From Candidatus Raymondbacteria bacterium RIFOXYA2_FULL_49_16 (GTDB lineage Bacteria; Fibrobacterota; OXYB2-FULL-49-7; XYB2-FULL-49-35): a stretch of DNA of 64,000 bases. Of this stretch, positions 30,864 to 51,532 are shown in pieces. The position numbers and the translations under genes are program-made. The notes below the pieces were generated by a model. It had not been told where the DNA came from. It searched no databases and was given only the letters and a program-made list of their open reading frames with translations. The stretch spans positions 53,723 through 117,722 of the forward strand of contig MFYT01000021.1 in NCBI GenBank assembly GCA_001789205.1, given 5' to 3'. Positions within the stretch are counted from its first letter, which is position 1; each line of letters begins with the position of its first letter.

Positions 30864-31583
30864 TTATCTCCATTTTGTCCCTGGTGCCTTTTTCCCCTTT
30901 GGGCACACTGCCGCGCAGATCCCGCACAGACTTACCTTTTCATTCATATGCTTCAGAGACAACTCCCTCGCTGTATCACGGCATTTAAAAGCATCATAGA
31001 AAAGGTCGCGGTCTGTCTGGATGTTCCACTCCCTGCCGTTTGCCGCCTGAGCCGGACATTTGGTAACACAAATGGTACAGTCCCCGCATTTGCAGGACTC
31101 AATGAACACACCTGTTTCAAATAGCTTCTCCTGCACAAGAATAGTCGCAAGCCTGACCCTGGGCCCAAATTTCTCTGTAACAAGCAGGGCGGTCTTGCCT
31201 ATCCAGCCAAGACCAGCACGCGTTGCAGCCATTTTATGCGAAAACGGCGTGCGCAGGTTTTCAAAATATGACGCATCGAGCTCTGAATCCTGCCAGGTCG
31301 GTTTTATGGGCTGGTTCTTAATATTCGCACGATCAAAGGATGCGGAGACAGAGTTAATTACTTGGCTTAATTCCGCGTTGATGGTGCGATAATGGTCCAG
31401 ATATGTCCTGTTGGGACCCTGTTTGATTGCATCGATAATGACATCATCGAGCTTACGGGCAAAAACCAACGCATACTGGTATTCCCGATAGGGCTCGGAA
31501 AGAAGACCTTCCACGTCCGCAAAACCCGTTGCATACAGGTCGGGAAAAGGAAGGGCTGATGCAATGAGTGATTGAATGTCCAT
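30864..31583 (-). CDS. 4Fe-4S double-cluster protein related to epoxyqueuosine reductase
   Basis: 239 aa. Two iron-sulfur motifs are visible: CKCGDCTICVTKCP (about 166-179) and CGICAAVCPKG near the C-terminus, with a further Cys in FKCRDTAREL. The segment AGLGWIGKTALLVTEKFGPRVRLATIL is characteristic of the QueG (epoxyqueuosine reductase) family. It is much shorter than QueG and lacks the HEAT-like C-terminal extension, so it may be a distinct reductase. It starts 14 bp after the sulfatase. It lacks a radical-SAM CxxxCxxC motif and so is not an anaerobic sulfatase-maturating enzyme. Confidence 0.78.
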   Translation of the reverse strand: MDIQSLIASALPFPDLYATGFADVEGLLSEPYREYQYALVFARKLDDVIIDAIKQGPNRTYLDHYRTINAELSQVINSVSASFDRANIKNQPIKPTWQDSELDASYFENLRTPFSHKMAATRAGLGWIGKTALLVTEKFGPRVRLATILVQEKLFETGVFIESCKCGDCTICVTKCPAQAANGREWNIQTDRDLFYDAFKCRDTARELSLKHMNEKVSLCGICAAVCPKGKKAPGTKWR

Positions 31584-31597
31584 GGATAAAACCAGGC

Positions 31598-33112: not shown

Positions 33113-33222
33113 GGTTTCTCCAGGTTGAGTAACAGATGCAGGAATAAAATACGTTTTTGAAAGAAACCGTTTAAATGGAAAACCGTGTGCTGGCGGCTGT
33201 TGCATTAACGCGGATAGTCTTA

Positions 33223-33388
33223 GAGCCTGTTTGAAAAGTCCTTCCTAGCGTCGCCCGGCTGCGAACGGCCGTCTGCTGCGTTGCGCTCCCTCACCGTATC
33301 GCAGAAAGGATACGCTTCGGTCGCGCGCCTTGCATCCGTCCATTCTCGCACGGGCTTTGGCCGACGGCCGGACTTCTCAAACAGGCTC
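33223..33388. mobile_element. 166-bp inverted-repeat element (MITE-like) with TTA target duplication
   Basis: The ends AGAGCCTGTTTGAAAAGTCC (33222-33241) and GGACTTCTCAAACAGGCTCT (33370-33389) are reverse complements with one mismatch. TTA occurs directly outside GAGCC on the left (33220-33222) and directly outside GGCTC on the right (33389-33391), consistent with a 3-bp target-site duplication. No gene fits inside. The interior is GC-rich compared with its flanks. The right TTA is also the stop codon (TAA) of the esterase gene on the minus strand, so the element sits exactly at that gene's end. It is probably mobilised in trans by a transposase not present here. Confidence 0.7.
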
Positions 33389-35599
33389 TTATCGTGTTCC
33401 CGAACGGTCCAGGATATCACCGGCACGTATGCGCTTCTCAAACCAGTCGGCCATGTCCTGATCTTGTGCGCCAGCTTTAATCTTCAAATTCCCATTTTTG
33501 TCCAATTGGTTATATACCTGCCGAGACCATCCAAACGCCGTCTCCAAGTCTTTTTGCCTCAGCGGTGTCCGTTCGTTTGAACCGCCGGCTTTACTGTATA
33601 TATTGAACCATGCGTCCCCGCCGCCAATATAAACGGCACAGGGAAACGACAACCCGGGCATCATGGTCAGGTCAGCGTATTTACCAACCCCGTATGCCCA
33701 TGTGGCCTGGTGCCACTGTTCTGTTCTGGGCCGTCCATAGGCCATGTGCCTGAAATTCCTGTGGCCCGTGGGCTTGTGCATCCAGGAATAGAGCTGTTGC
33801 TTTGTCCCTGCCATTGAAACGCGGTCGTCCATCATGGCCGTGATAAGCGCGGCCATGCCGCCGATGTCCTCGCCAACAACGCCGATCTTCGCGGTATCGC
33901 ACCAGTAAGGTACCAGGTGCAGATAATCAACCAAACGTTTGATATCGTAATACATGAGCCCCAGCGTGGGCGCGCCAAACGCCCGGACCCACTGGTTGCT
34001 GACAAAATCAGGGGCAATGAACTGGCCAGCCTTTGATGCATGGTTTATGCGGTTATCGCCCGTGCCCCTGAACGTGGCGCTGACCACGGCATATCCTTTG
34101 GTCTCAAGCGCTTTTTTCATTCCCTGAAGGCCCTGGCTGCCTTCGGGTGATACCAGTATAAAAACAGGCACACGGATCCCGTTTTCCCGGGGAACATTGG
34201 AAACCGTAAAATCAAGTGTACAACTTGAGTCAATACGGATTGCGTTTGCCGTAGGATCAAAAGTGACGGCCTTTGAGGGCAGACCCCTGAAGGCATCGGC
34301 TGCAATGCCTGCACGCGTACGGGTGAGAAGCGTGTCCAGGGCGTTACGGGTCATTGGGGGTGATATGCCGGAAAGCCACATGCGCCCAAGTCTGTATTGC
34401 AGCCAGGCCGCGTTGTTCTCATACGGATCAGCAAGCCACCCAAACGCCCCTTCATGGACCAATGCCCGGCCGCTGATATCGCCGATATCTTCCGGCTCCT
34501 TGTCAATTGGCGTCGCGCAGCCTGTCGGAGCTCCGTCATTCCCTTTAAAGTGCACATTGAAAAATTTCAGGGCAATGACCTGTTTGGCCTGGTCATAATT
34601 GTGCTTTCCAATGTTCGCGAACCTGCAATGGGTCTTTGCCTTTCCAGCTCCGTACAGGTCCCAGATTGGAGCTATTCTGGAATCCCAGTCCCGCGCATCC
34701 ATTGCTTCCCTGTATCCAAAGGGTTCAATGGCCTCGGCAATCATGCAGTATGGCCTAGGCGCATTCATGGCCATGTACTGCCATTGGTCGCCATACAATC
34801 CAACAAAGGGAAGTATATCGCATGCAGGCATGGGCCGTTCCCGGATAATGCTCATGCCCTGCATGGAACCGCACACGGGAACGCTGGCTTTGATGCGCGT
34901 GTCAATGGCGCTGAACCAGAACGTCGCTGTGCCGCCGCCCGAGCACCCAGTGGCGCCTATCTTTGATGTGTCTATGTCTGGTCTTCTATAGAGATAATCA
35001 ACCCCCCGCATAAGACTGCGCAGCTGCATCTGCGCCACGCCAAAGCCGAATGGCTCGCACAACTGGCCATAGTGGCCGTCGTGATTTCCCGGATGACAGT
35101 CGCATTCCGTGGAATACCCCATGTCGAAAAAAAGAACAACATACCCCTCTTTTACCATTGCGCGGGCCGCCCATGATTCCGTCTCTGTGGGCGAGTTTTT
35201 TCCCTGGGTCTCGTGGCCGGAATGAAAAATTATAGCGGAAAACGTGGGGCCGCCCAAGGCTGGCAGATAGAGAAGGGCGGTCGCGAAATATCCCGCGACA
35301 ATGGGAATCGCAACTGGCCGGACAGAATACGTCCCGTGATCAACAACCGCTCCCTCGCGGACACCGGACAATGGATCTGATTTTTCAAGAGAAAGTGCGC
35401 TTGCCATGCCAGACCGTATCTGGTCCTGAATGGAATCCCATGCAGCGCTTGTGGCAGGCGTTTTGTCCGCGTGCGGCGGCAGCTGACAACCTGCCCATGC
35501 GCTGTACCAGTTGTTGAATGATGCGCACGACCCGGATTTTGCGTATATAGCAGGGCAGACCGCGATTAAAAATACAAAAAAATGACCCACGGATTTCAT
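33389..35599 (-). CDS. Exported two-module alpha/beta-hydrolase, without sorting tail
   Basis: 736 aa from ATG 35599, which overlaps the stop of the upstream deacetylase gene (ATGA); an ATG two codons earlier is an alternative. The signal peptide is FFVFLIAVCPAIYA. Module 1 (about 70-370) has a Ser nucleophile elbow GCSGGG (Ser220) and resembles acetyl-xylan-esterase-type hydrolases. Module 2 (about 455-715) has the strand-turn-helix KIGVVGEDIGGMAALI, with Asp578 where Ser is usual. Two paralogues here (45452-47878 and 49109-51532) have the same layout and continue into a sorting tail after AGDI-NR; this one ends at AGDILDRSGTR, at the edge of an inserted element. The likely substrate is an acylated polysaccharide. 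Confidence 0.8.
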   Translation of the reverse strand: MKSVGHFFVFLIAVCPAIYAKSGSCASFNNWYSAWAGCQLPPHADKTPATSAAWDSIQDQIRSGMASALSLEKSDPLSGVREGAVVDHGTYSVRPVAIPIVAGYFATALLYLPALGGPTFSAIIFHSGHETQGKNSPTETESWAARAMVKEGYVVLFFDMGYSTECDCHPGNHDGHYGQLCEPFGFGVAQMQLRSLMRGVDYLYRRPDIDTSKIGATGCSGGGTATFWFSAIDTRIKASVPVCGSMQGMSIIRERPMPACDILPFVGLYGDQWQYMAMNAPRPYCMIAEAIEPFGYREAMDARDWDSRIAPIWDLYGAGKAKTHCRFANIGKHNYDQAKQVIALKFFNVHFKGNDGAPTGCATPIDKEPEDIGDISGRALVHEGAFGWLADPYENNAAWLQYRLGRMWLSGISPPMTRNALDTLLTRTRAGIAADAFRGLPSKAVTFDPTANAIRIDSSCTLDFTVSNVPRENGIRVPVFILVSPEGSQGLQGMKKALETKGYAVVSATFRGTGDNRINHASKAGQFIAPDFVSNQWVRAFGAPTLGLMYYDIKRLVDYLHLVPYWCDTAKIGVVGEDIGGMAALITAMMDDRVSMAGTKQQLYSWMHKPTGHRNFRHMAYGRPRTEQWHQATWAYGVGKYADLTMMPGLSFPCAVYIGGGDAWFNIYSKAGGSNERTPLRQKDLETAFGWSRQVYNQLDKNGNLKIKAGAQDQDMADWFEKRIRAGDILDRSGTR

Positions 35600-36282
35600 A
35601 CGCATAAGGTTTTCGATAAAAATCCTGACTGTATGGCCAGGGGAAGATCGGTTTTAAAGGCTTCAACATACTGGCATCGGGTGTTTCGCGCCCTCAAAGC
35701 ATTTCTTTCAATGACCTTGTCTACGCGTGTTTCATCAGGGTTTTGGGATTTGTGGGCCCTGATAAGCACCTTTTTCTTATCGATGACGCTTGTGATATCA
35801 ACAAGGAGGTCTGGCTCGAATTGTCCCATTTGCGCAGCGTCATTCTCGCCCATGTACAGTTCAACGTCCTTGGAAATACCGGAAAGGTGGATCGCCTTGG
35901 CCGCGATAGCATAGGCCGCCACATGGTCCGGATGCTTGTTTATTGGCCAAAGGGTGAAAACCGCAACAGGACCCAACCGCCGTAATGCGGCCGCAACAAT
36001 GGCGCACACATCTTGGTGCGCAAAAAGTTCGCCATCTATTTCGCCCAGAAATGTCAGATGCGCGTTCAACTTTTTACATGCCGCCATCTCTTCCTTTTCA
36101 CGGATGGCCGCAGCTTCATCATGCGTTTTCCCTTTGATTCCCCGTTCCCCTTTGGTCGCGCATAAAACATGAATTTCATGGGTTTTCCCCAGCAAACACG
36201 CTGTTCCGCCCATTGCATGGGCGACATCGTCCGGATGGGCAACGATAAAGACAACCGTGCCGCGTTTCTTTGCCTTTTTCAT
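35596..36282 (-). CDS. PIG-L/LmbE-family deacetylase
   Basis: 228 aa from ATG 36282, which has GGGAGG upstream; the frame extends 41 codons further into the SSS gene's end and is rejected. The zinc motif AHPDD (His16, Asp18, Asp19) and the downstream HPDH are present, together with CATKGERG and EIDGEL, all typical of the family. PIG-L enzymes remove the acetyl group from N-acetylglucosamine-type residues. No signal peptide, so a cytoplasmic substrate is likely. It lies 44 bp after the symporter gene and is translationally coupled to the esterase gene downstream. Confidence 0.88.
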   Translation of the reverse strand: MKKAKKRGTVVFIVAHPDDVAHAMGGTACLLGKTHEIHVLCATKGERGIKGKTHDEAAAIREKEEMAACKKLNAHLTFLGEIDGELFAHQDVCAIVAAALRRLGPVAVFTLWPINKHPDHVAAYAIAAKAIHLSGISKDVELYMGENDAAQMGQFEPDLLVDITSVIDKKKVLIRAHKSQNPDETRVDKVIERNALRARNTRCQYVEAFKTDLPLAIQSGFLSKTLCV

Positions 36283-36326
36283 AAATGCGCATCCTCCCGC
36301 TTTGATACCATAGTCTAGTTTTCTAT

Positions 36327-38480
36327 TCAGGCTCCTATCCGCACCATGGCGAATGCCAGAAATATAATAATAATCACTCCGGCAACTCCCGCCAGGAATC
36401 CCCACACATCGACCTTGTCGATCCTGCCAAATTCGAGGTTTGTACCCGGGAACATCTTGGCCTTCTCCAATATTTCAGGACTTTCAGCGGCCAGCGCCAC
36501 GTTGCGTGTGTCTTCTTCCTTGTCCGGCGATACAGGCGTCCGTAGCTTGGCATAGAACTGGTTCAGGACACGGTTGTCCTGCTTTTGCGTCACCAGGCAC
36601 ATGACGAACAGCAATAACAACGGAAGAACCATGCGGATGAACAACCGCACACTCTCGAGTTCCTGCGGCCGCAGCGCGTCGAGCCGCACCCCTGCCTTAT
36701 ACAACAGGAACAGGTCAAAATAAAAGAGCCCCTTTCCTGTCAACTTTTCTGTTTCGCGGTCCTTTTTCAGGCCTTGGGAGAAAAACAGGGCAGTGCCCCC
36801 TGATTTGAACGTTTTTTCAATCGTGTTGCCCACGCTGATTGCCGCGGGCCTCTCTCCCACTGCCCTGCCTTCTGTGTTGAGAAAATCCCACTCGGAAATC
36901 TGTCGCGCCCGGATATTGACATCCGCCTCTTTGGCGGCCATTGCAACGACTTCCACCTTTTCCCGTGTGGCCTGGGTGCAGGCAATGCGCACACCAGGGA
37001 CAATGACGGGTATGCACAGAGGCAGGACAAAAAACAGGATGGTTGCAACAAGCACTGTGGCCATTGTACCGATCCTATTGGCCTTTCTCCAGAACATGCC
37101 CAGCCAAAATGGCGCGGCAAACACAATGGGTAATTCCCAACTGAGTTTGAGTTGGTCAAACACATCGTTATACGCGACGGCTATAAGCGTTCCGCCCGCC
37201 ACTACAAGCCCGCCCACGATCCTTCCTGCCGTGACATAGTGGCCATCGTGACGGTCTGGGACAAGCGGCCGGTACATATTGTTGACAAATAGCGCTGAGG
37301 CGGAGATCATGTACGCCTGAGCCGAGGACATAAGCGCGGCAAGCAGGGATGCGATCATAAACCCCACGAGGCCCAGACCCAGGCCTCCCAAAAGCTCATG
37401 GGTCGCATAGCCCCATACCAGGTCCGGGTCTGATATTTCGCGCGCAAAAAGCGCAAGAATAACCAGTCCGGTCATGCCCCAAAAGAGCGTGACAACCCGT
37501 TTTATAAAATTTCCAGCCAGCCCGCCTATTCGGGCCGAGAGTTCATTCTTGGCCGATCCGCTCATGGTCATGCGTTGCGGCTGCACCACAATGCCATACA
37601 GGTTCAGGAGGCTGATAGCAACTACATAATACCAGGTGAACTCGCTTGCCAGGGGCGACCCCAGCAGACTGAAATAAAAATCATTGACCTTGGCGTGCAA
37701 ACCCTCGAATCCGCCCAACCGGTACAGTCCAAAGGGCAGCATAATGACCGAGAGCAGTATTATGAATATGCCTTGCACCACGTCAGCGTAAAACGACGCC
37801 ACCAAGCCGCCCGCAACAGCGCAGGCAATAATGACCACAGCGACAGTTATGATGGTTATTTTTGGGTTGAGGTGCGAAAAATTGGCATTTGGTTTCAAAG
37901 CTTCCAATTCCTTCAACCGTTCTTTTTGCCCGCTGTTCAGCGACTGATAATCAGCGGCCTGGAGCGCCTTGAGCTCGTAGAACATGCCCTGCTCCGCGAC
38001 CATTGCCGGGGTCATGTCTGATTTGTCAATGGGAGTGAGGGCGATCAGCGTTTTATTCAGGGCCGTGAAACCAATAGAAATGTATGCCATGAAAAAAATG
38101 ATGCCGAAGATCGCATAAAAACCCGCCAGGGATTTGCTCTGAAAACGCTCCTCCCAGAAATCGGCAAGGGTCAGCATGCGCATGCGCCTGTACCAGGGAT
38201 AAATGATCCAGTTGAACGGAGTGGTAAAAAGCCAGTTTAGGACTGTCCAGATACCAGAAATGCCGTCACGAAAGGTGTTGCGCGCAGTGCCAATTGGCGA
38301 ATCCGCTGATGTGCCTGTTCCGAATACCGCAAAAATCTGAACAAAAGAACCGAATCGCCGCGAGCCAAGGTAATAATCAACCTGGGTCTTGACACGTTTC
38401 ATTGACCAGTAGCCGATGTAGAAAATGAGCGCAAAGTAGCCCAGAATAACAATGATATCCAGAATAGAAAGCCCAAACAT
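36327..38480 (-). CDS. Sodium:solute symporter (SSS family)
   Basis: 717 aa with an AAAGGA ribosome site. At least twelve membrane segments, starting LDIIVILGYFALIFYIGYWS. Family features are VDYYLGSRRFG, FGTGTSADSPIGTA, GGLVASFYADVVQGIFIIL (a sodium-site helix) and SLLAALMSSAQAYMISASALF. A polar insertion (about 150-195) and a long loop (about 495-590) make it longer than the usual 500-550. It imports a sugar, sugar acid or similar solute with sodium. It stands between a SIS-type isomerase and a deacetylase, so it is the probable importer of the product made by the exported esterases. Confidence 0.88.
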   Translation of the reverse strand: MFGLSILDIIVILGYFALIFYIGYWSMKRVKTQVDYYLGSRRFGSFVQIFAVFGTGTSADSPIGTARNTFRDGISGIWTVLNWLFTTPFNWIIYPWYRRMRMLTLADFWEERFQSKSLAGFYAIFGIIFFMAYISIGFTALNKTLIALTPIDKSDMTPAMVAEQGMFYELKALQAADYQSLNSGQKERLKELEALKPNANFSHLNPKITIITVAVVIIACAVAGGLVASFYADVVQGIFIILLSVIMLPFGLYRLGGFEGLHAKVNDFYFSLLGSPLASEFTWYYVVAISLLNLYGIVVQPQRMTMSGSAKNELSARIGGLAGNFIKRVVTLFWGMTGLVILALFAREISDPDLVWGYATHELLGGLGLGLVGFMIASLLAALMSSAQAYMISASALFVNNMYRPLVPDRHDGHYVTAGRIVGGLVVAGGTLIAVAYNDVFDQLKLSWELPIVFAAPFWLGMFWRKANRIGTMATVLVATILFFVLPLCIPVIVPGVRIACTQATREKVEVVAMAAKEADVNIRARQISEWDFLNTEGRAVGERPAAISVGNTIEKTFKSGGTALFFSQGLKKDRETEKLTGKGLFYFDLFLLYKAGVRLDALRPQELESVRLFIRMVLPLLLLFVMCLVTQKQDNRVLNQFYAKLRTPVSPDKEEDTRNVALAAESPEILEKAKMFPGTNLEFGRIDKVDVWGFLAGVAGVIIIIFLAFAMVRIGA

Positions 38481-38512
38481 GGTTTATCCTTTCGTGGCGG
38501 TGAGGGAAATGT

Positions 38513-39268
38513 TCAGGACACCGGATACAGATGGTGAATCCGGTGACGATACGCTTCGATAAATGAACTGTTATGCTCGTCTCCGCCGGGAACATTGTTA
38601 CTCAGCCAGATGTCGGGATTTTTACCGCGGTCAGCCAATATTTGGACTGCGGTGGAAGTGATGCAATTCAGGGTAAAACAGGTTGCAATGGTGGCCGTAG
38701 GCGTGACCTTCTCTTTGATGCCTTTTATTTTCAGAACAGCGTCGAGCACAGGCACGTGGTTGTCAACAGCAACGTGCGCAAGGTCATTGATATTCTTTTT
38801 GCTGGGATGGCGCCATTTGAAACTCAGGGGAACCGCTTTGGCAAAGGCATGGGAGTTCACGGTAATAAGTTTTACCCCGCGCTTCCGGCCCTCAAGCGCC
38901 ACATCGACGGATGCGGGATTTAAGCCATAGAAATTGACAACAATGAGAGGATCGCCTTTTTTTACTTCATAAAAATTCAGTATGAAAGAACCTGTACCGC
39001 TCAGCCGCGCCATTGTGGGGTGTGAATAGATGACGTTCATTCCCGGGGGGAAAATAGGGTTGATGGGTATCAACCCGCCGGCCCGGTAGAAGATTTCCAT
39101 TGCCGCGATTGAAGAGTGTCCGCCTGCGCCGAATATATGCACAAGGCGGTCGTCAATGATGGCGTCCGCGATGATTTCCGCAGCAGCATGGATCTGCGCG
39201 CGTTCTTTCCGTGTGATGGCGGAAAGTATGCTCTGGATGACTGAAAAATACTTTTTCGAGATGTCCAT
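38513..39268 (-). CDS. SIS-domain sugar-phosphate isomerase-like protein
   Basis: 251 aa with an AAAGGG ribosome site. The SIS fold is visible in DDRLVHIFGAGGHSSIAAMEIFYRAGG (about 40-66), with phosphosugar-binding GHSS, and in LIVVNFYGLNPASVDVALEGRKRGVKLITVNS (about 108-139). It resembles the UPF0309/sugar isomerase group and has no signal peptide. Such proteins bind or isomerise phosphosugars, often amino sugars. It sits 22 bp after an esterase gene and 32 bp before the symporter, inside the long operon. Confidence 0.8.
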   Translation of the reverse strand: MDISKKYFSVIQSILSAITRKERAQIHAAAEIIADAIIDDRLVHIFGAGGHSSIAAMEIFYRAGGLIPINPIFPPGMNVIYSHPTMARLSGTGSFILNFYEVKKGDPLIVVNFYGLNPASVDVALEGRKRGVKLITVNSHAFAKAVPLSFKWRHPSKKNINDLAHVAVDNHVPVLDAVLKIKGIKEKVTPTATIATCFTLNCITSTAVQILADRGKNPDIWLSNNVPGGDEHNSSFIEAYRHRIHHLYPVS

Positions 39269-39290
39269 GGGTGGCCCTTTCGTGAATGTT

Positions 39291-41594: not shown

Positions 41595-41615
41595 GAAGCC
41601 CCCTTTTTATTCTAT

Positions 41616-43118
41616 TTACCTCATCAGGATAGCTTTAGATACTATTTTCTTGCTGCCCGCTTTTAACCTAATACAATATATCCCGCCCGGCAAATCCTTC
41701 GCATTCCAGAGAACGCCCGTTGCGAGTTCTGAATTCCGTAATGAAATTTCGCATACGCGCTGTCCATTCGTAGAATAAATCACCATTTCAGCTTTTTCAG
41801 AACCTGGAACATCAGGCCCAAAGCTCCCGAAAATTTTCGTGATCGGGTTAAACGGGTTTGGATACGCATGTATAAAGGCGGCGTTTGCATGCATACCCGT
41901 TGTTTCGGTCCGATTTATGTCTGGCACGGTAATTTGATAAACATGGATATGGGGCTCTTCCTTTTGCTGGTCCGCAATATAGAGCCTCCCTGTCTCAGGA
42001 TCATATCCAGCTCCGGCCATTAACGCGCTGCCGTCGGAACACATTTCATCCATCGTCCACATTGCATAGGGATGCATTTCCCAGCATTGCTTGGCGCCAC
42101 TTTTCACCTGAAGCAGATCATTGGCGTCATATGCCCATACCCGGTGGACATAGGGATACGCATGGCTCCCTTTGCCTCCGCTCACAGGATCATAGCATAC
42201 AATGTCCGGGGGGTGGTCATAACAGAATTCTCCTATGCCATGGGAACCAATGAAAAGTACGCTCCGGCTTCCCGGTGGAAACGCAATACCGCAAAAGTTT
42301 GACATCCAGTTGAAGAGTTCGCAGGTATCGCCTAACTGACAATCCTCCAACTTGTGCTCATTCGGATAAAAAAGCAGAGTGGTCCCTGGTATGGTGTCTT
42401 TTGCCCCCACATCGTCCGGATCAAAAACTGTGGCTGCCGGACCGGCTGAACTGCAGGAAAGGATTGAGAGGGCTTTACCGCCGGAAAGCGCCGGACCGCC
42501 CATAAGCGGTCGCCATTCCGGGGGTATTGTTGTCATAAACCCGGCCACTGACCTCGGATTTGCCACTGCATCCATCGCGAAAAACCCCTGAAAATCATTG
42601 CTATCAGAAAGATTAAAGCCCGATACGCCATGAGAATTGACCTGCGCGCAAGCGCCATCGTAAAAGCTTGCACCGGTAACAATAAGTCGTCCGTTATAGG
42701 GCAGCATCCCATATAGCCGCGGCATATAAGCTAAATCCGTTTGAATATGTCCCTCAGTTACGTCGGCAAATGGCTGCAATACTGTGGCCCGGTTCATACT
42801 GCTATAGACGTTACTTTGCACCAGCAGGCTGTCTGCCGGCACTTCAATCTGAGCCACATGCCCCGGATTCCAATTATGGCCTTCCATAAAAAGCGTGTGT
42901 TTGCCGGTTGAAGGGTCTTTGTAATGGGTTACAGCAGCACCGCTGTAGCCAAAACGCGAAGTCCCGATAGTGGCCGTTGACATGGAAAAGGCACCGATGT
43001 AAGTGACGTCGGATTTTTGGATAAGCGGCTCTTCCTGCGGGCTAATACCCATGGCAAGCATTGGCATCATGGATATCAATAGAGACGTTCCGGAAACGAG
43101 GCTGGCGACGATCTTCAT
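41616..43118 (-). CDS. Exported propeller-like protein of unknown function with sorting tail
   Basis: 500 aa with a GGGAGG ribosome site. Signal peptide (IVASLVSGTSLLISMMPMLA) followed by about 380 residues without a recognised family. Repeated aromatic/Gly-rich strands (TYIGAFSM, GKHTLFMEGHNWNPGHVAQIEV, YNGRLIVTGASFYDG, GRLYIADQQ) suggest a beta-propeller. The sorting domain is about 420-500 (AYPNPFNPITKIFG, end SKAILMR). It lies between the two FnIII/esterase paralogues with gaps of 10 and 21 bp, so it is part of the operon. It may bind the same substrate; no catalytic motif is identified. Confidence 0.7.
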   Translation of the reverse strand: MKIVASLVSGTSLLISMMPMLAMGISPQEEPLIQKSDVTYIGAFSMSTATIGTSRFGYSGAAVTHYKDPSTGKHTLFMEGHNWNPGHVAQIEVPADSLLVQSNVYSSMNRATVLQPFADVTEGHIQTDLAYMPRLYGMLPYNGRLIVTGASFYDGACAQVNSHGVSGFNLSDSNDFQGFFAMDAVANPRSVAGFMTTIPPEWRPLMGGPALSGGKALSILSCSSAGPAATVFDPDDVGAKDTIPGTTLLFYPNEHKLEDCQLGDTCELFNWMSNFCGIAFPPGSRSVLFIGSHGIGEFCYDHPPDIVCYDPVSGGKGSHAYPYVHRVWAYDANDLLQVKSGAKQCWEMHPYAMWTMDEMCSDGSALMAGAGYDPETGRLYIADQQKEEPHIHVYQITVPDINRTETTGMHANAAFIHAYPNPFNPITKIFGSFGPDVPGSEKAEMVIYSTNGQRVCEISLRNSELATGVLWNAKDLPGGIYCIRLKAGSKKIVSKAILMR

Positions 43119-43128
43119 TGTGCCCTCC

Positions 43129-45432
43129 CTATTTTAACAGAACGGCCTTTGCAATCATTTGTTCACTTCCGGCTTTATAACGAACAATATAAGTACCTGA
43201 CGGGCAATGGGAAGCGTCCCAGGTAATGCCGGAAGCAAGAAGCAAAGAGTTAGCAGCAAGCTTCTGAACCAATTTCCCGTGAATGTCAAATATTTGTATT
43301 TCAATATTTTTACTCTTTAATTCCCGCCCCTTGATTCTGATTATTGTTTCCGGATTAAACGGGTTTGGTGATATTTCCATGGACATTCCGTTACCGCGTT
43401 CTCCAGCGTTTACCGCAGATGTTGTCGGGCCTGATTTGTACCTGAATTCAAGCCAGCTGCCCGTGGACGTCAGCGGGAACGAGGTATAGGTGACATGCCC
43501 GTATTCATCGACAGTCACGTCCTTTGATGCATAGGTTGTTGCAAAATCTTTTGACAGGCTTTTTGCCTCGAACATGGCTGTTGGCATGGGCCTGAAATGC
43601 TGGGTACGACGCGGTGTAATGTCCGCTGTTTGGTTGCCGCCAGGTATGGAACCGGTCGTTATTGCCTGCGACTTGACCCACACCCTGAAGACTTCAGCGG
43701 AATCAACGATACTATTTATTCCATCAAGCGTGTTTAACGAGCATGCCCATGTAATGCCGAAATTTATTAACGCATGACCTACGCCCAGACTAGCAAGGTC
43801 GTACCGGAAAGCCAATCCGTCAAAAGAAACCGCGTTATTTGAAAGATTTGAAACTCCCAGTACAGCTTCATTCTTTTTCAGCTTCAGATAATCAGGGAAC
43901 GCCATTCCTCCGTTATAATAAGCTACTCCCGAATGGCCGGCAGTCATTATACGGCACGCCCATGCCCGTTTTGACACATTTTGCGAATCTACCCAGCCTG
44001 GGATCATGCAGGGCGAAGCCGCGCTCGGGTCCTGTGTCCCGTTAATCGAGAATATCATGGGCCATTCTTCGGTCATGCGTAAAGGATTGGTCATCTGCCG
44101 TTTTTGGTTCTGCCATTGCCAGATGTTTGTTCCATTATATTTAGATAAATGGGACTGGCTATAGGGGTCTTTGTATTCAATGGGCTGTGCGGCTGCTTTT
44201 GAGCCCCATTTCCAACTAGCATGCTCGTCCCACGTTGCAAAAGAAACTGAAGGCAAGCCCCATTGCGCTGCCCAATATGCGGCACTGTCGTTGAGATTGG
44301 CCGTATTGTAGTTTTCCCAGTCGGTAAAAACAGCATCGCCATATCCTGATGCGAAAAAATCATAGTATCGGGTCATTAATGCGACTGCTGCGCCGCCCAT
44401 GGAACCGCCAACAATATACACCCGGTTTGTGTCTATATTGAAATCAGGATGCCGGGTCAAAGCCCTCATTGAATTTATGAGATACTCTTCCGTATAAAAA
44501 ACCATGGTGTCGTTGTCACCTGCCACAGGGCCGGATCCGTTCGGATGCGTCTGGTAATCGTAATGTTTGCTCCAGCCAGTAAACCAGTCCCTATATGTGT
44601 TCATCCATACTTCATCAACAGTCGAATTCCGGGATTTATTGTAAATAAAACCTTTGCCGGGGGATCCATTCATCTTAAAAGTTATTGGATGCGTCGATGT
44701 CCCATTACGACCCAGCACATAGGAGTCTCCCCACATTATCGATAAAGTGTTCCAAATGTTTCCACCGCCCGTCACTGGATCCATTGAGTATAAATTAAAT
44801 CCCTTGTCATCATAAAAATATGCGTACAGACGGCACTGATGTTTTCCAGTGCTCCATTCCCCCTGATAGATGCAGATAATCCCGGGGGGCGCTGCGGCCT
44901 CTGTAGAAACCATTACGATATTACCGGCATTTATGGATTTGTCCTCAGTCCCGCCGGCAATTGCCGTAACAACATAATTACCGTTCCCTTCTTCACGAAT
45001 ACGATGTACATAAAGACCTGTACCTGTTGGGAGTTCATCTCCCTTTCCAGCGTGATTAACGCCATGTTCTGCGATACAGTCTGTTATGACATACCTCGAT
45101 ATATTGACCGGTATCTTAAGTCCATAAGGGTCATCCGGACCAAATCCGGCAATACCTTCGTAATAAAGATCGCCGCTTGCCACTCCAAAAACAGAACCCA
45201 GGGCGCCGCTATTCTGAAGAGCTTTGCCAATATAATAGGTACTGGTAAGATCAGCGGTAGTAAGGGCGGAACCAATTTTCCGGTAAACCCGGTATTCCGT
45301 GGCCCCTGCAACTTCGGTCCAAGTAATAAAGGTCTGTCCTTCACGGTAAAACGCCGTGACATTGGTTGGCGTGCTGGGATAAGCATTTGACACAACAAGG
45401 ACCACAAAGAACAATTTCAGCAGATGCTTCAC
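43129..45432 (-). CDS. Exported FnIII-like/alpha-beta-hydrolase protein with sorting tail (paralogue)
   Basis: 767 aa with a GTG start preceded by an AAGGGGGGG run. The domain order is the same as in the paralogue at 39291-41594: signal peptide, FnIII-like domain (about 22-110), alpha/beta-hydrolase with elbow VGGSMGGAAV (about 345-354), sorting domain (about 680-767, ISPNPFNPETIIRIKG, end AKAVLLK). The sorting tail differs clearly from that of the paralogue, whereas the segment before it is almost identical, so tails and passengers seem to evolve separately. A secreted esterase acting on an acylated polymer is likely; the exact substrate is unknown. Confidence 0.82.
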   Translation of the reverse strand: MKHLLKLFFVVLVVSNAYPSTPTNVTAFYREGQTFITWTEVAGATEYRVYRKIGSALTTADLTSTYYIGKALQNSGALGSVFGVASGDLYYEGIAGFGPDDPYGLKIPVNISRYVITDCIAEHGVNHAGKGDELPTGTGLYVHRIREEGNGNYVVTAIAGGTEDKSINAGNIVMVSTEAAAPPGIICIYQGEWSTGKHQCRLYAYFYDDKGFNLYSMDPVTGGGNIWNTLSIMWGDSYVLGRNGTSTHPITFKMNGSPGKGFIYNKSRNSTVDEVWMNTYRDWFTGWSKHYDYQTHPNGSGPVAGDNDTMVFYTEEYLINSMRALTRHPDFNIDTNRVYIVGGSMGGAAVALMTRYYDFFASGYGDAVFTDWENYNTANLNDSAAYWAAQWGLPSVSFATWDEHASWKWGSKAAAQPIEYKDPYSQSHLSKYNGTNIWQWQNQKRQMTNPLRMTEEWPMIFSINGTQDPSAASPCMIPGWVDSQNVSKRAWACRIMTAGHSGVAYYNGGMAFPDYLKLKKNEAVLGVSNLSNNAVSFDGLAFRYDLASLGVGHALINFGITWACSLNTLDGINSIVDSAEVFRVWVKSQAITTGSIPGGNQTADITPRRTQHFRPMPTAMFEAKSLSKDFATTYASKDVTVDEYGHVTYTSFPLTSTGSWLEFRYKSGPTTSAVNAGERGNGMSMEISPNPFNPETIIRIKGRELKSKNIEIQIFDIHGKLVQKLAANSLLLASGITWDASHCPSGTYIVRYKAGSEQMIAKAVLLK

Positions 45433-45451
45433 AAGCCCCCCCTTTTTTAAT

Positions 45452-47878
45452 TTACCTCATTAGAATTGCTTTAGACACTGTTTCCCTGCCTCCTGCTTTT
45501 AAACGGACAATATAGGTCCCTGACGAGCAGTGGGAAGCATCCCAATTAACTGAATTACTAATTTCGAATTTCGAATTACGAATTTGAGATGATAAATCAG
45601 CGACTAATTTCCCTCTGATATTGAATATTTTCAGTTCCGGATTCGTAATTCGTAATTTGCAATTCGTAATTATTATTGTTGTTGCCGGATTAAAAGGATT
45701 GGGGGACACAGAAAGCGCCATTTCCTCTTTTTCCCCAGGTATCTGTACATTGGAACCTGGACGCATAGTCCGGTTAATAATATCTCCCGCATTGATCCTG
45801 GCCTCGAACCAGTCTGCCATTTCCTGGTCTGTGGACCCTGCTTTTATCTGGATATTCTGGGGTTTGCCCAGGTTCATAAACGCATCAGCCGACCATTTAT
45901 AAGCATTTGAAAGGTCAGTCTGGTTCAATGGCGTGCGGGCGTTATTGCCATCGCCCGTCACATAAATATTATACCAGTCATCGCCTCCATTCACATATGC
46001 CGCGCATGGATATGCCAGGCCAGCCATCATGGTAATGTCCGCGTACTTGCCAACACCATAGGGCCAGCTTGCTTCATGCCATGATGCGTCATCGGGCTTG
46101 GAATAAACAGGATGGACAAAAAGCCTGTGCGAGGTAGGTTCGTGCATCCAGGAAAAAAGCTGCTTTTTTGTGCCGACCATATCGATCCTGTCGTCCATCA
46201 TTGCCGTTATCAAAGCGGTTATGCCGCCGATGTCTTCACCCACAACGCCTATTTTCGTGGTGTCGCACCAAGGGACCGTGTGCAGATAATCGAGTACGCG
46301 TTTGACATCATAATACATAAGGCCCAGCGTGGGAACACCGAAAATCCTGACCCAAAAGTCGCTGATCAGATCCGGGGTCAATAACGACGGCGTTGGGCGA
46401 TTGTCCTTAACCCTGTTGTTTCCAGTGCCTCTGAATGTGGCTGCAACTACCGCATAACCCTTGCCTGCGAGGATGCCCCGCAATACAGAAAGCCCGGTAT
46501 CGCCTTCTGGTGAAATCATTATGAACGTAGGTTTCCGGGCGCCGTTTCCATTGGTTGTTGAAAGGGTAAGTGAAAAGCTCGGGTCCACTTGAATCGTGGA
46601 ACCAGAAGGGTTAAGCGGCACATCGATTTTGCTTAGTCCGCGGAAAGCATCGCTCATTATGTGCTGTCTGACATTTCCTACACGGTTGTCCAAATCCTGT
46701 TGCGCCACAGGAGGATTTATGCTGTCCAGCCACATCTTGCCCAGGTTATATTGAAGCCATGCCGCGTTGTTTTCGTACGGATTAGTGAGCCATCCTGATG
46801 AGCTGGTATAGGCCAGTACCGGTTGCGCCGGATCCTCATGGGCATATCCGAGCGGATTGCCTTCCGCTCCCTTAAAATGCATATTAAAAAATTTCGCCGC
46901 CATGATCGATTTGTTCATATTATAATTATGATTTCCCTCAGTCGCGTATATGCAATCAGCGGCCCGGTTGCCATATAGGTCCCATACCGGGAATATGCTT
47001 CTATTCCAGACTGCGGGAAATAACGGGCCTTCATTTATCATGTATAACGCCCGGGGGGCTGTTATGTTAAAAAACTGTAAATGCTCTCCATAGTACCCCA
47101 CAAACGGGGGAATATGGCAGACGGGCCTGAATGTGGTAATGATAAAAGTCGTATCAACCGCCGTAGGACACACGGGAACGCTCACTTTGACCCTGTTGTC
47201 AATAGCACCGAAATAAAGGGTGACCGAACCCCCTGTGGAAGAGCCGGTAGCGCCTATTTTCGACGTATCAACGTCGTTCCTGCTGAAAAGGTAATCAATG
47301 CCCCGCATGCAGCTTACTATCTGCATCTGCGCAACACCAAAGCCGAAAGGTTCGCAAATTTGACCATAGTGGCTGTCGTGGGGCGGGACTCCTGTAAATT
47401 CTACGCTATATCCCATGTCAAACATAAGGACAATATACCCATCGTTTGCGAGCGTCCGGCACGCGCCGGTCATGTCCTGGGTTGAATGCTTGCCCCCGAG
47501 CCAGTGGCCTGAAAAATGGATGACAGCGGGAAATTTGGGCCCTCCTGTTTTGGGAAGGTAGAACGCGGCTGTTGCAAGATGCCCTGCAACAATTGGAATT
47601 CCAACCGAACGCGCCGTGTATGTCCCATGGTCTGTAACTACTCCTTCGCGCACACCCGATAATGGGTCAAGTTTGTCCAGGCTCAACGTACTTTGCATGC
47701 CATTACGAATTAATGTCTGTATGGAATCCCATTGAGCGCTGCTCGTGGGCATTATCCTGGCATAATCAGGCTGCTGGTTTCTTGCCCAGCTTGGATACCA
47801 ATCGTTGAACGCGCAGAAGGCGGGGGCTATGTTTACAACTATTATAAACGACCAGAACGCTTTTAAAATAACCATCAT
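45452..47878 (-). CDS. Exported two-module alpha/beta-hydrolase with sorting tail
   Basis: 808 aa. The chosen ATG at 47878 overlaps the stop of the regulator gene (ATGA) and follows AAGGGGG closely; the ATG at 47875 is an alternative. Signal peptide (FWSFIIVVNIAPAFC), module 1 with elbow GSSTGG, module 2 with GEDIGG (Asp in the nucleophile position), then a sorting tail (about 720-808). The tail contains an in-frame low-complexity repeat that encodes NCKLRITNPELKI and later IRNSKFEISNS, unlike tails of other genes. It is translationally coupled to the GntR/LacI-type regulator, which suggests the regulator senses a product of this locus. Confidence 0.8.
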   Translation of the reverse strand: MMVILKAFWSFIIVVNIAPAFCAFNDWYPSWARNQQPDYARIMPTSSAQWDSIQTLIRNGMQSTLSLDKLDPLSGVREGVVTDHGTYTARSVGIPIVAGHLATAAFYLPKTGGPKFPAVIHFSGHWLGGKHSTQDMTGACRTLANDGYIVLMFDMGYSVEFTGVPPHDSHYGQICEPFGFGVAQMQIVSCMRGIDYLFSRNDVDTSKIGATGSSTGGSVTLYFGAIDNRVKVSVPVCPTAVDTTFIITTFRPVCHIPPFVGYYGEHLQFFNITAPRALYMINEGPLFPAVWNRSIFPVWDLYGNRAADCIYATEGNHNYNMNKSIMAAKFFNMHFKGAEGNPLGYAHEDPAQPVLAYTSSSGWLTNPYENNAAWLQYNLGKMWLDSINPPVAQQDLDNRVGNVRQHIMSDAFRGLSKIDVPLNPSGSTIQVDPSFSLTLSTTNGNGARKPTFIMISPEGDTGLSVLRGILAGKGYAVVAATFRGTGNNRVKDNRPTPSLLTPDLISDFWVRIFGVPTLGLMYYDVKRVLDYLHTVPWCDTTKIGVVGEDIGGITALITAMMDDRIDMVGTKKQLFSWMHEPTSHRLFVHPVYSKPDDASWHEASWPYGVGKYADITMMAGLAYPCAAYVNGGDDWYNIYVTGDGNNARTPLNQTDLSNAYKWSADAFMNLGKPQNIQIKAGSTDQEMADWFEARINAGDIINRTMRPGSNVQIPGEKEEMALSVSPNPFNPATTIIITNCKLRITNPELKIFNIRGKLVADLSSQIRNSKFEISNSVNWDASHCSSGTYIVRLKAGGRETVSKAILMR
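45551..45671. repeat. In-frame AATTCGTAATTCG-type repeat within a sorting tail
   Basis: Two clusters of the same short repeat (45551-45585 and 45639-45671) are in inverted orientation. Each is built from GAATTACGAATT-like units. Both lie inside the esterase gene and are read in frame. This simple repeat also occurs in non-coding DNA of other bacteria, from general knowledge. The stretch between the clusters encodes the normal IFNIRGKLVADL segment of the tail. Confidence 0.65.
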
Positions 47879-48960
47879 ACCCCCTTGCAAGACTGTCTTT
47901 CAATAAGCCGAAACGGAGCAAACCGTGTCTGCGGCAATGACCGTTGCCCGTTCCGCAGCATTCCATAAAGCAGATCGAGCGCGCTTTCGGCAAGCGCTTC
48001 CCTGTCTATGCCGATTGTCGTAAGAGGAGGATTTGATATTCTGCCGCCGTCAAAATCGCCTATCCCAATAATGCTCACGTCGCCCGGAACTTTCAGGCCT
48101 TTTTCAACACAGGCATTCAACGCACCCAGCGCAAGCCTGTCATTGGCAGCGACAATCGCTGTAGGCCGGATAGTGTCGATGATTGTATGCGCAACCGTAT
48201 ACCCATCCACGAGCGCATCTTTTTCACATCGCAAAACAAGGTTTTCATTATATTCAATGCCAGCATCAGTGATCGCTTTCATATACCCATAATGAATATT
48301 TAAAAACCTCTGATGCGATGGTCCGTTTATCAGAACGATTTTCCGGTGGCCAAGTTTGATCAGGTATTCCGTAGCGCAGCGGCCATATCCAATGCTGTCT
48401 ACAAGCACCCTGTTGAACTCGTTTTCTATTGGGTCAGGATACAGGAGATATCCGGAAACAACAACAGAAATATGCGCCTGCTTGAGAGATTTAAGGATTT
48501 CCGCGGTCAGCAGGCCGCTTATGACAATGCCATCTGGTGAATGCTTGTCCCTGATGGATACAAGGAGATTGTCTATGTCTTTTTCCGAATTTATTGTGAA
48601 AAACATCATTTTATCGCCGCGATCTTTTGTCTTACTTTCGAGTTCCAGCAGCATTTTAGAATGATGTTCGTCAAAAATCTCCCTGTTTGCCAGCACAAAA
48701 CCTATTGTTTTCTGCTTTGGCCCTATTGCATCAAGCGGCTCCTTGCCGATAAACGTCCCTCGCGGACCGAGTTTGAAGATTTTTTCTTCCTTTTCAAGGA
48801 TATCCAGGGATTTTCGGATGGTCATACGGTTAAGGCTATATTCCCGCGCCAGTTCTCTTTCAGATGGAAGCCTATTGTTCGCAAACTGGGATGAAGTAAT
48901 TCGTTGTTTCAGGTCTTCCGCAACTTTCTGGTATGTGTATTGTTCTGTTTCAAAAGGCAT
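47875..48960 (-). CDS. GntR-type regulator with LacI-like ligand domain
   Basis: 361 aa from ATG 48960 (AAAAGGAAAAC upstream); the frame stays open 53 codons further but covers the operator array. The winged helix-turn-helix spans about residues 8-75 (LPSERELAREYSLNRMTIRKSL, GPRGTFIG). The LacI/GalR-like sensor follows (KTIGFVLANRE, SPDGIVISGLL, LGHRKIVLINGPSHQ, PTAIVAANDRLALG, SIIGIGDFDGG). It is a close paralogue of the regulator at 56369-57496. Four TATACCA boxes lie upstream, consistent with autoregulation. It is coupled to the esterase gene downstream by ATGA. Confidence 0.88.
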   Translation of the reverse strand: MPFETEQYTYQKVAEDLKQRITSSQFANNRLPSERELAREYSLNRMTIRKSLDILEKEEKIFKLGPRGTFIGKEPLDAIGPKQKTIGFVLANREIFDEHHSKMLLELESKTKDRGDKMMFFTINSEKDIDNLLVSIRDKHSPDGIVISGLLTAEILKSLKQAHISVVVSGYLLYPDPIENEFNRVLVDSIGYGRCATEYLIKLGHRKIVLINGPSHQRFLNIHYGYMKAITDAGIEYNENLVLRCEKDALVDGYTVAHTIIDTIRPTAIVAANDRLALGALNACVEKGLKVPGDVSIIGIGDFDGGRISNPPLTTIGIDREALAESALDLLYGMLRNGQRSLPQTRFAPFRLIERQSCKGV

Positions 48961-48980
48961 GATGTTTTCCTTTTCTATGA

Positions 48981-49023
48981 TATACCACTTTAATATGGTA
49001 TAGTCTATACCATAAATATACCA
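48981..49023. promoter_or_regulatory. Four TATACCA boxes upstream of the GntR/LacI-type regulator
   Basis: TATACCA occurs at 48981-48987, 49006-49012 and 49017-49023, and its reverse complement TGGTATA at 48996-49002. The middle pair forms a perfect dyad GGTATAGTCTATACC. The array begins 21 bp upstream of the regulator start, where a repressor would block transcription. Related boxes recur at 51578-51584, 51685-51691 and 55037-55043. Confidence 0.65.
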
Positions 49024-49108
49024 CTGTTGATCAAATTTGTCAATACTTTTTTTTAAAAAGATTATCAGTCGGTGTTGACCGAAAAATGGCCGAAACGAAG
49101 AATCAATT

Positions 49109-51532
49109 TTATCTGACAAGCATGGCTTTTTTAGCCATTGTGTTTTTTCCGAACCTCACTGTTATAAAATAAATACCGCTTGGCAGGGCAGAGGCATCCC
49201 AAATATAACCAGAAGTCAGAATACAGAAGTCAGAAGATATTTTGTCAATTAATTTTCCATAGACACTGTATATTTTTATTTCTGGTTTTTCGCCTGGCTT
49301 AAGGCCGCTGACTGTTATCCTTGTTGTCGGGTTAAATGGGTTTGGCGAAACCTCAAGCGAGGTCCATTTTTCTATTTGTTTTTCCCGTATGGAAGAGATT
49401 GGCCTGGTTGTACGGTTCTCAATGTCCCCGGCATTTATGCGTGCTTCAAACCAGTCCGCCATCTCCTGGTCAGTCGCCCCTGCTTTAATTCTCATGTTCT
49501 GGTTTTTCCCCAGATTATTAAACACATCAGTCGACCATTTATATGCAGAGTCGAGATCGTTCTGGTTCAACGAAGTCCTGTCATTCCTGGCACCATCGTA
49601 GGTGCCGTAAATATTGAACCATACGTCGCCGCCGCCAATATAAGAAGCGCACGGATATGCCAGACCCGGCATCATTGTCAGGTCCGCGTATTTGCCAATA
49701 CCATATGGCCATGATGCCTGGTGCCATTCAGCGGTTTTCGGCGTTGCATACAACATATGGCCATATACCCGATGGGTTGTTGGTTTATGCATCCATGAGT
49801 ACAACTGTCCTTTTGTGCCAACCATATCAACGCGATCGTCCATCATGGCGGTTATCAGGGCGGCCATGCCTCCTATATCCTCTCCCGCTATACCTATCTT
49901 TGCCGTGTCGCACCATGTTTGCGTATGCAGGTAATCAAGAACCCGTTTAATGTCATAATACATCAACGCAAGCGTGGACCCGCCAAAGATCCGTATTCCC
50001 AAATTGCTGATGTAATCAACCATGTCGGCATAAGAAGTACTTTCCGTGTATCGGTTGTCTCCGGTTCCCCTGAACGTGGCTGTTACCACTGCATATCCCT
50101 TGCCTGCCAAAGCCGCCCGCAGGCCGGAAAGCCCTGTGGCGCCCTCCGGTGATATGACAATAAATACGGGTTTTACGCTCCCGCTTCCATTCGTAATTGA
50201 AAGGTCCAGGGAAAATGCAGGGTCCACATGAATTGTTGCGCCGCTCGCATTAAGACTCACGTCATTCTTTGGAAGCGCCCTGAAAGCATCTGCCATAATG
50301 TTCGTCCGCACAGTATCGATCCTATGTTCCAGTTCAGCCTGATTCAATGGAGGAGCGATCCCGCCCAGCCACATTTGGGAAAGGGTGTACATGACCCATG
50401 CGGCATTGTTTTTATACGACTCGTTGCCCGTAAGCCAACCGCTTCCATTAAAAGGGTCCAGAAGATAATCCGCGGGAGGATTTGCGCTTGAATTTCCCAC
50501 CGGCGAACCTTGGTTTCCAAAGAAATTGAGGTTGAAAAACTGGGCGGCCAAGACTTGTTTCGCTTCATCATAATCGTGCTGCCCTATTTGCATCCATTTG
50601 CAGCTTGTTGATGCATTGCCATAGGTATCCCACACGGGTTTGACATATGTGTCCCATTCTGCGGGGTTTGGATTGGAAGCGTTCTCCTGCAGCATAAAAA
50701 AGGCCCTGGGTGCGGCCATGGCGGTAAATTGCCATTGCTGGGCATAAAAACCCGGGAAAGGCAGAACATCACATATTGGGTACGTGAGTTTTTGGCCGAA
50801 AAACATCTGGTTCATTGAGGAACATAAAGGGATGCTGGCTTTGACCCTGTCATCAACAGCGCCAAACCAATAAGTTGCCGTACCGCCCCCTGAAGATCCT
50901 GTTGCACCAATCCTGGTGGTATCAACATCATTTCTGGTGAATAAATAATCTACTGTGCGCATTAAGCTTCTCAGCTGCATCTGTGCCACCCCAAAACCGA
51001 ACACTTCACATAATTGACCATAGTGCCTGTCATGATTGGGCGACATGGTACCGAACTCTGTTGAGAATCCCATGTCAAGATGTATGATAATATAGCCTTC
51101 GTTTACCATTGTTTTATTTATTCCGGTCATGTAGTACTGATCATTTTTGCCATTGGTCCAATGACCGGAATGGTTGATAATTGCCGGGAACCGCGGTCCT
51201 CCTGTTTTAGGCACATACAGTATCGCTGTTGTATAATAACCGCCCACAACCGGGATTGCGATAGCTTGGGTGGTATATGCGCCTTTATCTACCGATGTCT
51301 TTACAATAACATCTGAAAACGGGTCAAACTTTTCCAAGGATAATGTGCTTTTTAAACCATCTCTCATCTTTTGCTGCAATAAATTCCATTCTGCTGAGTC
51401 AGCGGGAATGGTCGCTGCATAGGTCGGCAACTGGTTTGCGGCCCAATTGTTAAACCAGTCGTTGAAGGCTGCAAATGTAGCGCCAGAAAAAATTGCCAAA
51501 ACAATGCCTGCTGCAGATAAAGTTGTACGCAT
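49109..51532 (-). CDS. Exported two-module alpha/beta-hydrolase with sorting tail
   Basis: 807 aa with a strong AAGGAGGAG ribosome site. Signal peptide (LSAAGIVLAIFSGATFA|AFNDW). Module 1 has elbow GSSGGG, and module 2 GIAGEDIGGMAAL, again with Asp in place of Ser. The sorting tail is about 722-807 (VSPNPFNPTTRITVSG, end KKAMLVR), and its variable loop (about 772-780, SDFCILTSG) is encoded by an imperfect TTCTGACTTCTG repeat. It is separated from the regulator by the operator region and divergent from etfB, so it may form its own unit. Probable secreted esterase or related hydrolase for an acylated polymer. Confidence 0.82.
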   Translation of the reverse strand: MRTTLSAAGIVLAIFSGATFAAFNDWFNNWAANQLPTYAATIPADSAEWNLLQQKMRDGLKSTLSLEKFDPFSDVIVKTSVDKGAYTTQAIAIPVVGGYYTTAILYVPKTGGPRFPAIINHSGHWTNGKNDQYYMTGINKTMVNEGYIIIHLDMGFSTEFGTMSPNHDRHYGQLCEVFGFGVAQMQLRSLMRTVDYLFTRNDVDTTRIGATGSSGGGTATYWFGAVDDRVKASIPLCSSMNQMFFGQKLTYPICDVLPFPGFYAQQWQFTAMAAPRAFFMLQENASNPNPAEWDTYVKPVWDTYGNASTSCKWMQIGQHDYDEAKQVLAAQFFNLNFFGNQGSPVGNSSANPPADYLLDPFNGSGWLTGNESYKNNAAWVMYTLSQMWLGGIAPPLNQAELEHRIDTVRTNIMADAFRALPKNDVSLNASGATIHVDPAFSLDLSITNGSGSVKPVFIVISPEGATGLSGLRAALAGKGYAVVTATFRGTGDNRYTESTSYADMVDYISNLGIRIFGGSTLALMYYDIKRVLDYLHTQTWCDTAKIGIAGEDIGGMAALITAMMDDRVDMVGTKGQLYSWMHKPTTHRVYGHMLYATPKTAEWHQASWPYGIGKYADLTMMPGLAYPCASYIGGGDVWFNIYGTYDGARNDRTSLNQNDLDSAYKWSTDVFNNLGKNQNMRIKAGATDQEMADWFEARINAGDIENRTTRPISSIREKQIEKWTSLEVSPNPFNPTTRITVSGLKPGEKPEIKIYSVYGKLIDKISSDFCILTSGYIWDASALPSGIYFITVRFGKNTMAKKAMLVR
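49210..49236. repeat. In-frame CAGAAGTCAGAA-type repeat within a sorting tail
   Basis: CAGAAGTCAGAAT is followed by ACAGAAGTCAGAAG, an imperfect direct repeat of about 13 bases. It lies at the position of the sorting-tail loop just before the W-D-A-S motif, homologous to the loop altered by a different repeat in the paralogue at 45452-47878. Confidence 0.6.

Follow-up and report, generated by a model that had tools for sequence, protein, structure and literature searches.

In the Bacteroidota, polysaccharide utilization loci (PULs) of the SusC/SusD type unite a regulator, surface enzymes, an importer and a sulfatase in one gene block. A block of similar make-up was analysed here in Candidatus Raymondbacteria bacterium RIFOXYA2_FULL_49_16 (Fibrobacterota), whose genome comprises 5.43 Mb in 112 contigs. 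It occupies positions 30864-51532 of a 64,000-nucleotide stretch of contig MFYT01000021.1 (hereafter the window) and codes for five esterases, a SIS-domain protein, an SSS-type sodium:solute symporter, a PIG-L-type deacetylase and a sulfatase. The adjacent SusC/SusD pair that marks such PULs was absent among the 12 proteins, in agreement with an earlier reading of the DNA letters (the original prediction), and the genome instead encodes a type IX secretion system (T9SS). In contrast to PULs, the block also lacks a glycoside hydrolase; the symporter replaces the TonB-linked pair, and the surface proteins would be secreted by the T9SS. Alphaproteobacterial SIS clusters (Martelella, Nitratireductor plasmids) resemble the locus in that their SIS protein falls into the GGHS subgroup as well (39-40% identity) and is accompanied by an importer and a LacI regulator of its own. 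However, their importer is of the ABC type, they encode NagB-like and NagA-like enzymes and an AGE epimerase, their SIS proteins retain the catalytic Glu discussed below, and esterases, PIG-L protein and sulfatase are missing.

We tentatively favour the view that the locus is a catabolic operon induced by its substrate, an ester-decorated, N-acetylated saccharide or small glycoconjugate, and governed by its own autoregulated GntR-LacI repressor. If correct, it would show how decorated sugars can be used by a T9SS-bearing bacterium outside the Bacteroidota with neither SusCD nor a local depolymerase.

Gene order and a shared promoter/operator-like pattern

Twelve minus-strand open reading frames (ORFs) fill the locus, as predicted, and the catalytic motifs of the PIG-L protein, the sulfatase and the esterases are intact. 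Pfam and NCBIfam profile searches against model cut-offs confirmed the families originally listed (SSF, PIG-L, sulfatase, SIS_2 and two esterase architectures), whereas the GntR-LacI regulator inside the locus had been overlooked. The features are, in order of transcription:

51578-51616, minus strand: promoter/operator-like element TATTGACA-N-GGTATA-N3-GGTATA before EstA1, one of three genome-wide
49109-51532, minus strand: EstA1, exported two-domain alpha/beta-hydrolase esterase with T9SS tail; GSSGG nucleophile motif in domain 1, GEDIGG with Asp in the nucleophile position in domain 2
48995-49045, minus strand: promoter/operator-like element with the perfect palindrome ATGGTATAGACTATACCAT, before the regulator
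47875-48960, minus strand: GntR-LacI hybrid transcription regulator; likely ATG at 48960, ORF open to 49119
45452-47890, minus strand: EstA2, architecture as EstA1, T9SS tail; TTG start at 47890, ATG possible at 47878
43129-45432, minus strand: EstB1, exported S9/polyhydroxybutyrate-depolymerase-like esterase with T9SS tail
41616-43118, minus strand: exported tailed protein of no known fold (originally called a propeller), recurrent genomic partner of EstB-type esterases
39291-41594, minus strand: EstB2, second EstB esterase, T9SS tail; 72% identical to EstB1
38513-39268, minus strand: SIS protein of the PRK02947/UPF0309 (NagS-like) family, from a clade without the Glu94 of NagS
36327-38480, minus strand: SSS-type sodium:solute symporter
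35596-36282, minus strand: predicted cytoplasmic PIG-L/LmbE-type N-deacetylase with HPDD and HPDH; likely ATG at 36282, ORF open to 36405
33389-35605, minus strand: EstA3, architecture as EstA1, no T9SS tail; stops exactly at the repeat element
33222-33389, no strand: repeat element resembling a miniature inverted-repeat transposable element, with 20-bp inverted ends; partially copied at three other places in the genome
31598-33112, minus strand: S1-type sulfatase without signal peptide, CGPAR formylglycine motif; likely ATG at 33112, ORF open to 33205
30864-31583, minus strand: QueG-like double [4Fe-4S] protein, 14 bp after the sulfatase

From the regulator through EstA3, nine genes follow each other with intergenic gaps of -10 to +44 bp when the likely ATG starts are used, which is operon-like spacing. 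A gap of 276 bp separates EstA3 from the sulfatase gene. No RNA family was matched in positions 29000-53000 in an Rfam search.

The sequences preceding EstA1 and the regulator gene have AAAGTATTGACA...GGTATA...GGTATA in common, and the same elements precede a second regulator copy on contig C36. When the whole genome was scanned for TATTGACA-N(12-20)-GGTATA-N(2-12)-GGTATA, exactly three matches were obtained, all at these sites; a reversed control pattern gave none. In addition, the palindrome ATGGTATAGACTATACCAT (0.01 expected by chance in the window) overlaps the putative regulator promoter. The C36 region (L035, positions 2785-5266) is a decayed duplicate of the regulator and EstA2 in which the pattern is intact: the regulator copy has lost an internal stretch (67% over the part that aligns), and the EstA2-like gene that comes after it is split and has lost most of domain 1. 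As general sigma-70 promoter and terminator scans performed no better than on shuffled sequence, only this specific repeated pattern was used. Its confinement to EstA1, the regulator and the decayed duplicate supports one inducible unit, and as a shared, nearly private pattern it suggests that EstA1 belongs to the operon. Autoregulation together with control of EstA1 would be the simplest reading of its distribution. With an operator pattern nearly unique in the genome, the regulon is directly testable.

According to the favoured catabolic operon, an effector sugar would make the regulator let go of its GGTATA-containing operators, one before EstA1 and one before its own gene. EstA and EstB enzymes, with the tailed protein as a partner, would be secreted via the T9SS and remove ester groups at the cell surface, and the SSS symporter would bring in the released small sugar derivative together with sodium. 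Inside the cell, the PIG-L protein would take off an N-acetyl group, the SIS protein would rearrange the amino sugar in a reaction other than NagS dehydration, and the sulfatase would cleave off sulfate where present.

Putatively secreted esterases and an associated tailed protein

Hydrophobic N-termini were found in all five esterases and in the tailed protein; the sulfatase, PIG-L and SIS proteins have none. Proteins were regarded as T9SS cargo if they carry a C-terminal sorting domain (PF18962/TIGR04183) and the genome encodes the translocon. Sorting tails scored above the Pfam cut-off in EstA1, EstA2, EstB1 and the tailed protein and above the NCBIfam cut-off in EstB2, and the SprA translocon is encoded in the genome (TIGR04189, 588.6 bits; cut-off 200). 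Hence EstA1, EstA2, the EstB enzymes and the tailed protein are typical T9SS cargo, while EstA3 is an exported protein without a sorting tail. Por-type tails are frequent in this genome: the EstA model gave about 150 scored matches, nearly all of them to the tail. Given the tails and SprA on one side and the missing signal peptides of the PIG-L, SIS and sulfatase proteins on the other, the originally predicted split between exported esterases and cytoplasmic enzymes, with the symporter between them, holds as judged from these sequence signals.

The three EstA proteins are 54-57% identical. Their domain 1 matches models of the AXE1/DLH/GCE_fung type, and among solved structures it is closest to BT1017 (PDB 6goc; profile E 6.5e-13), a pectin methylesterase of CAZy family CE19. 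We took the Ser-Asp-His triad S282, D352 and H388 in a GxSxGG context as characteristic of BT1017-type (CE19) enzymes. Ser282 and His388, catalytic in BT1017 (PMC7939467), align with the invariant Ser214 and His319 of EstA, and the catalytic Asp has no aligned counterpart, its position being a gap that adjoins the invariant Glu283. Unlike BT1017, EstA ends in a T9SS tail rather than DUF3826 and has a second hydrolase-like domain in which Asp occupies the nucleophile elbow. In that domain 2 the elbow reads GEDIGG in all copies, including the decayed one on C36. Epoxide hydrolases use Asp as nucleophile, and domain 2 may either act in this manner or be non-catalytic; the latter is favoured because no clear partner His follows the Asp. 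The prediction of exported esterases was supported, but the acyl removal outside the cell that had been ascribed to them is one option only, the nearest characterised relative of domain 1 being a pectin methylesterase. A structure model of EstA was too poor to use (predicted local distance difference test score, pLDDT, 39.6).

The similarity to BT1017 opens another explanation, in which the target is a uronic-acid ester of the plant cell wall (a methyl-esterified or lignin-linked uronate) and the PIG-L, SIS and sulfatase proteins handle a minor side product. It would fit with the fungal glucuronyl esterase model among the best Pfam models above cut-off, with the DUF4838/GH67N-type proteins that adjoin several SIS genes in Lentisphaeria, and with the beta-helix and GH2 proteins downstream of the locus. 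However, the nucleophile motif of glucuronoyl esterases of carbohydrate esterase family 15 (CE15) is GCSRxG, in place of which GSSGG or GCSGG is found, and the similarity is too low for esterase specificity to be read from it. We consider this the least probable of the explanations weighed here. EstA was also rejected as a CE15 enzyme proper, since EstA1-3 have GSSGG, GSSTG or GCSGG at this position and the GCE_fung match is only partial.

The tailed protein encoded between the two EstB genes had been described as propeller-like. This fold found no support: neither Pfam nor the PDB gave a relative, even for a six-member profile, and the structure model (pLDDT 32.4) was unusable. The portions of this genome that were examined contain about 12 members of the protein's family, nine of which lie near an EstB-type gene (eight directly adjoining, one more within 2 kb). 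Seven EstB-type genes in 714 kb of other contigs would place about 0.7 of 12 copies within 3 kb by chance, although, given duplication, the P value is no more than indicative. In a second genus (genome G163, L199), a copy also adjoins an EstB gene. Some of these clusters include SASA or GDSL esterases. The cluster on contig C23 holds, besides EstB and the tailed family, an SSS homologue (31-33% identity), a FAD_oxidored protein and, by reading of the sequence, an IclR-type regulator. The pairing of EstB with the tailed family is firmer than the 12-gene set, and this Pfam-less secreted family that travels with esterases is a testable unknown. Esterase-rich clusters of this genome were seen at L179, L180, L034, L197, L198 and L209, with EstB-type, SASA and GDSL esterases and repeatedly with the Pfam-less tailed family.

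The SIS protein and its cytoplasmic neighbours

The SIS protein has a SIS_2 domain and belongs to the PRK02947/UPF0309 sugar isomerase domain family (PRK02947/NF002805, 220.8 bits; cut-off 135). Its nearest solved relative is NagS (SCO4393; PDB 9eol, 9f7o and 9f7v; about 34% identity over 233 residues). NagS is an N-acetylglucosamine 6-phosphate dehydratase that is inactivated by alanine substitution of H53, R64, E94 or D179, while the phosphate-contacting residues S54, S119 and S121 are dispensable for activity; homologues at about 30% identity are reported to have no NagS activity (PMC12680351). Like NagS, the window protein has His53, Arg64, Asp179 and Asn228, which are kept throughout its clade and in the other homologues. 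It differs at the position of Glu94, which is retained in 80 of 80 other homologues and replaced in all 21 clade members compared (20 Ala, including the window protein, and 1 Gly). The same 21 proteins share a four-residue deletion in the Glu94 region, and Ser119/Ser121 are Asn/Tyr across the whole clade. Because of the missing Glu94, the SIS protein was rejected as a NagS. As the other catalytic residues are kept, the clade is probably functional, with a changed reaction. Of the original annotation as a SIS isomerase, the family was thus confirmed and the isomerase role was not borne out. The clade is a second testable unknown.

In a 50-row tree, the window protein was placed as sister to the 20 other clade members (support 100/99). 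Proteins with 54-64% identity are encoded in 19 of 198 genomes of Lentisphaeria, all other matches being at 39% or less, and one of 393 genomes of Spirochaetota has a match at E 1e-70 or better. Clade members are found near AraC/IclR regulator, FAD oxidoreductase, Amidohydro_2 and DUF4838/GH67N genes; homologues of PIG-L, SSS, sulfatase, EstA and EstB were not found beside the clade relatives examined. SIS relatives outside the clade lie in amino-sugar clusters, next to nagE/nagA/nagB or to genes of NagA/NagB-like enzymes; this argues for amino sugars, in keeping with the PIG-L neighbour.

These neighbourhoods also bear on a classical phosphorylated route, in which a kinase encoded elsewhere would phosphorylate the imported N-acetyl sugar, and the resulting sugar phosphate would be the substrate of the SIS protein. 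Phosphosugar binding is usual for SIS domains, and relatives in Bacillota adjoin phosphotransferase system, nagA and nagB genes. On the other hand, an SSS protein takes up an unphosphorylated solute, the operon has no kinase gene, and two of the three phosphate-contacting serines of NagS are replaced throughout the clade (119 by Asn, 121 by Tyr), even if they are dispensable in NagS (PMC12680351). Taken together, such a route seems rather improbable. Still more speculative is the notion that an unphosphorylated amino sugar, produced by the PIG-L protein, is the substrate of a new reaction catalysed by the clade (Lentisphaeria, one spirochaete and this genome). Together with the SSS importer it would form a kinase-free route whose substrate is exposed by T9SS esterases and an undescribed tailed family.

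The PIG-L protein scored 85.6 bits with PF02585 (cut-off 28.2) and has both metal motifs of the PIG-L/LmbE family intact (HPDD, and HxxH as HPDH). The sulfatase (PF00884, 187.6 bits) carries the C-x-P-x-R motif in the form CGPAR (residue 84, counted in the open ORF) and lacks a signal peptide. The short QueG-like protein reached 64 bits against a cut-off of 200. The edge of the repeat element at positions 33222-33389 (three partial copies elsewhere in the genome, 78-88% identity) is exactly where EstA3 ends, and EstA3 is without the tail seen in its paralogues. Because of the 276-bp gap with this element, the place of the sulfatase and QueG-like genes in the operon is unproven. The predicted desulfation inside the cell fits a sulfatase with CGPAR and no signal peptide, but this enzyme may lie outside the operon, and a sulfated substrate is unsupported.

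Distribution of the gene set and flanking genes

Co-occurrence was searched for in related groups and by pattern scans; the comparison within the phylum includes one genome of the same order and is dominated by one genus of 3-4-Mb genomes. The SIS protein was found in one of 61 sampled genomes of the phylum (this genome only), a close SSS match in none of the 167 other genomes (1 of 168), and full-length EstA in this genome only among the 168. When 84,980 species genomes were scanned with just two 7-residue patterns of the EstA alignment, 69 matches were obtained, none of them a relative. The SIS relatives with 62-64% identity have no partner genes in their neighbourhoods and no SSS in their genomes. 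An arrival of the symporter together with the SIS gene from Lentisphaeria is unsupported, as a search at 1e-20 gave no SSS match in genome G169 or G170. The gene neighbourhoods led us to reject a conserved 12-gene system. Conservation of the set was not supported: lack of co-occurrence, named beforehand among the observations that would refute the original prediction, is what was found in the related groups and pattern scans covered.

The main rival to a single catabolic operon is a pair of unrelated co-transcribed units for different substrates: a surface de-esterification unit (regulator, EstA/EstB, tailed protein), of a type found at many places in this genome, and a separately acquired SIS/SSS/PIG-L unit, with the sulfatase/Fe-S pair as a third behind the repeat. 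EstB and the tailed family occur without SIS or PIG-L homologues on contigs C112, C45 and C9, the SIS clade exists elsewhere without such esterases, and the sulfatase is set apart by the repeat element. Yet the spacing is tight, no internal copy of the promoter pattern lies between EstB2 and SIS, the EstB/SSS arrangement is seen again on C23, and EstA3 after PIG-L interleaves esterase and cytoplasmic genes. We regard two units as unlikely, though as the most serious of the alternatives. Further points weigh against the catabolic operon as proposed: (i) the full gene set recurs nowhere in the groups and scans searched; (ii) there is no kinase or depolymerase within the operon; (iii) the bond type cut by EstA/EstB cannot be predicted from sequence; (iv) nor can the substrate of the SSS transporter; (v) the sulfatase, set off by the repeat-containing gap, is the least certain member.

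As originally stated, no glycoside hydrolase is encoded inside 30864-51532, but 1-7 kb downstream, on the same strand, there are genes for a GH2-family protein (23634-26153) and for a pair of tailed proteins resembling right-handed beta-helices (26318-29536), possibly a depolymerising neighbour. The region 23634-29536 also includes alcohol dehydrogenase and aminotransferase genes. On the other side of the locus, a divergent electron-transfer flavoprotein pair and a FAD-linked oxidase are found at 51716-55005. At 15528-20167, an M55 D-aminopeptidase gene comes after the genes of a dipeptide-type ABC transporter, and a gene for a caspase-domain (Peptidase_C14) protein at 11166-12830 adjoins a zinc-finger anti-sigma-like gene.

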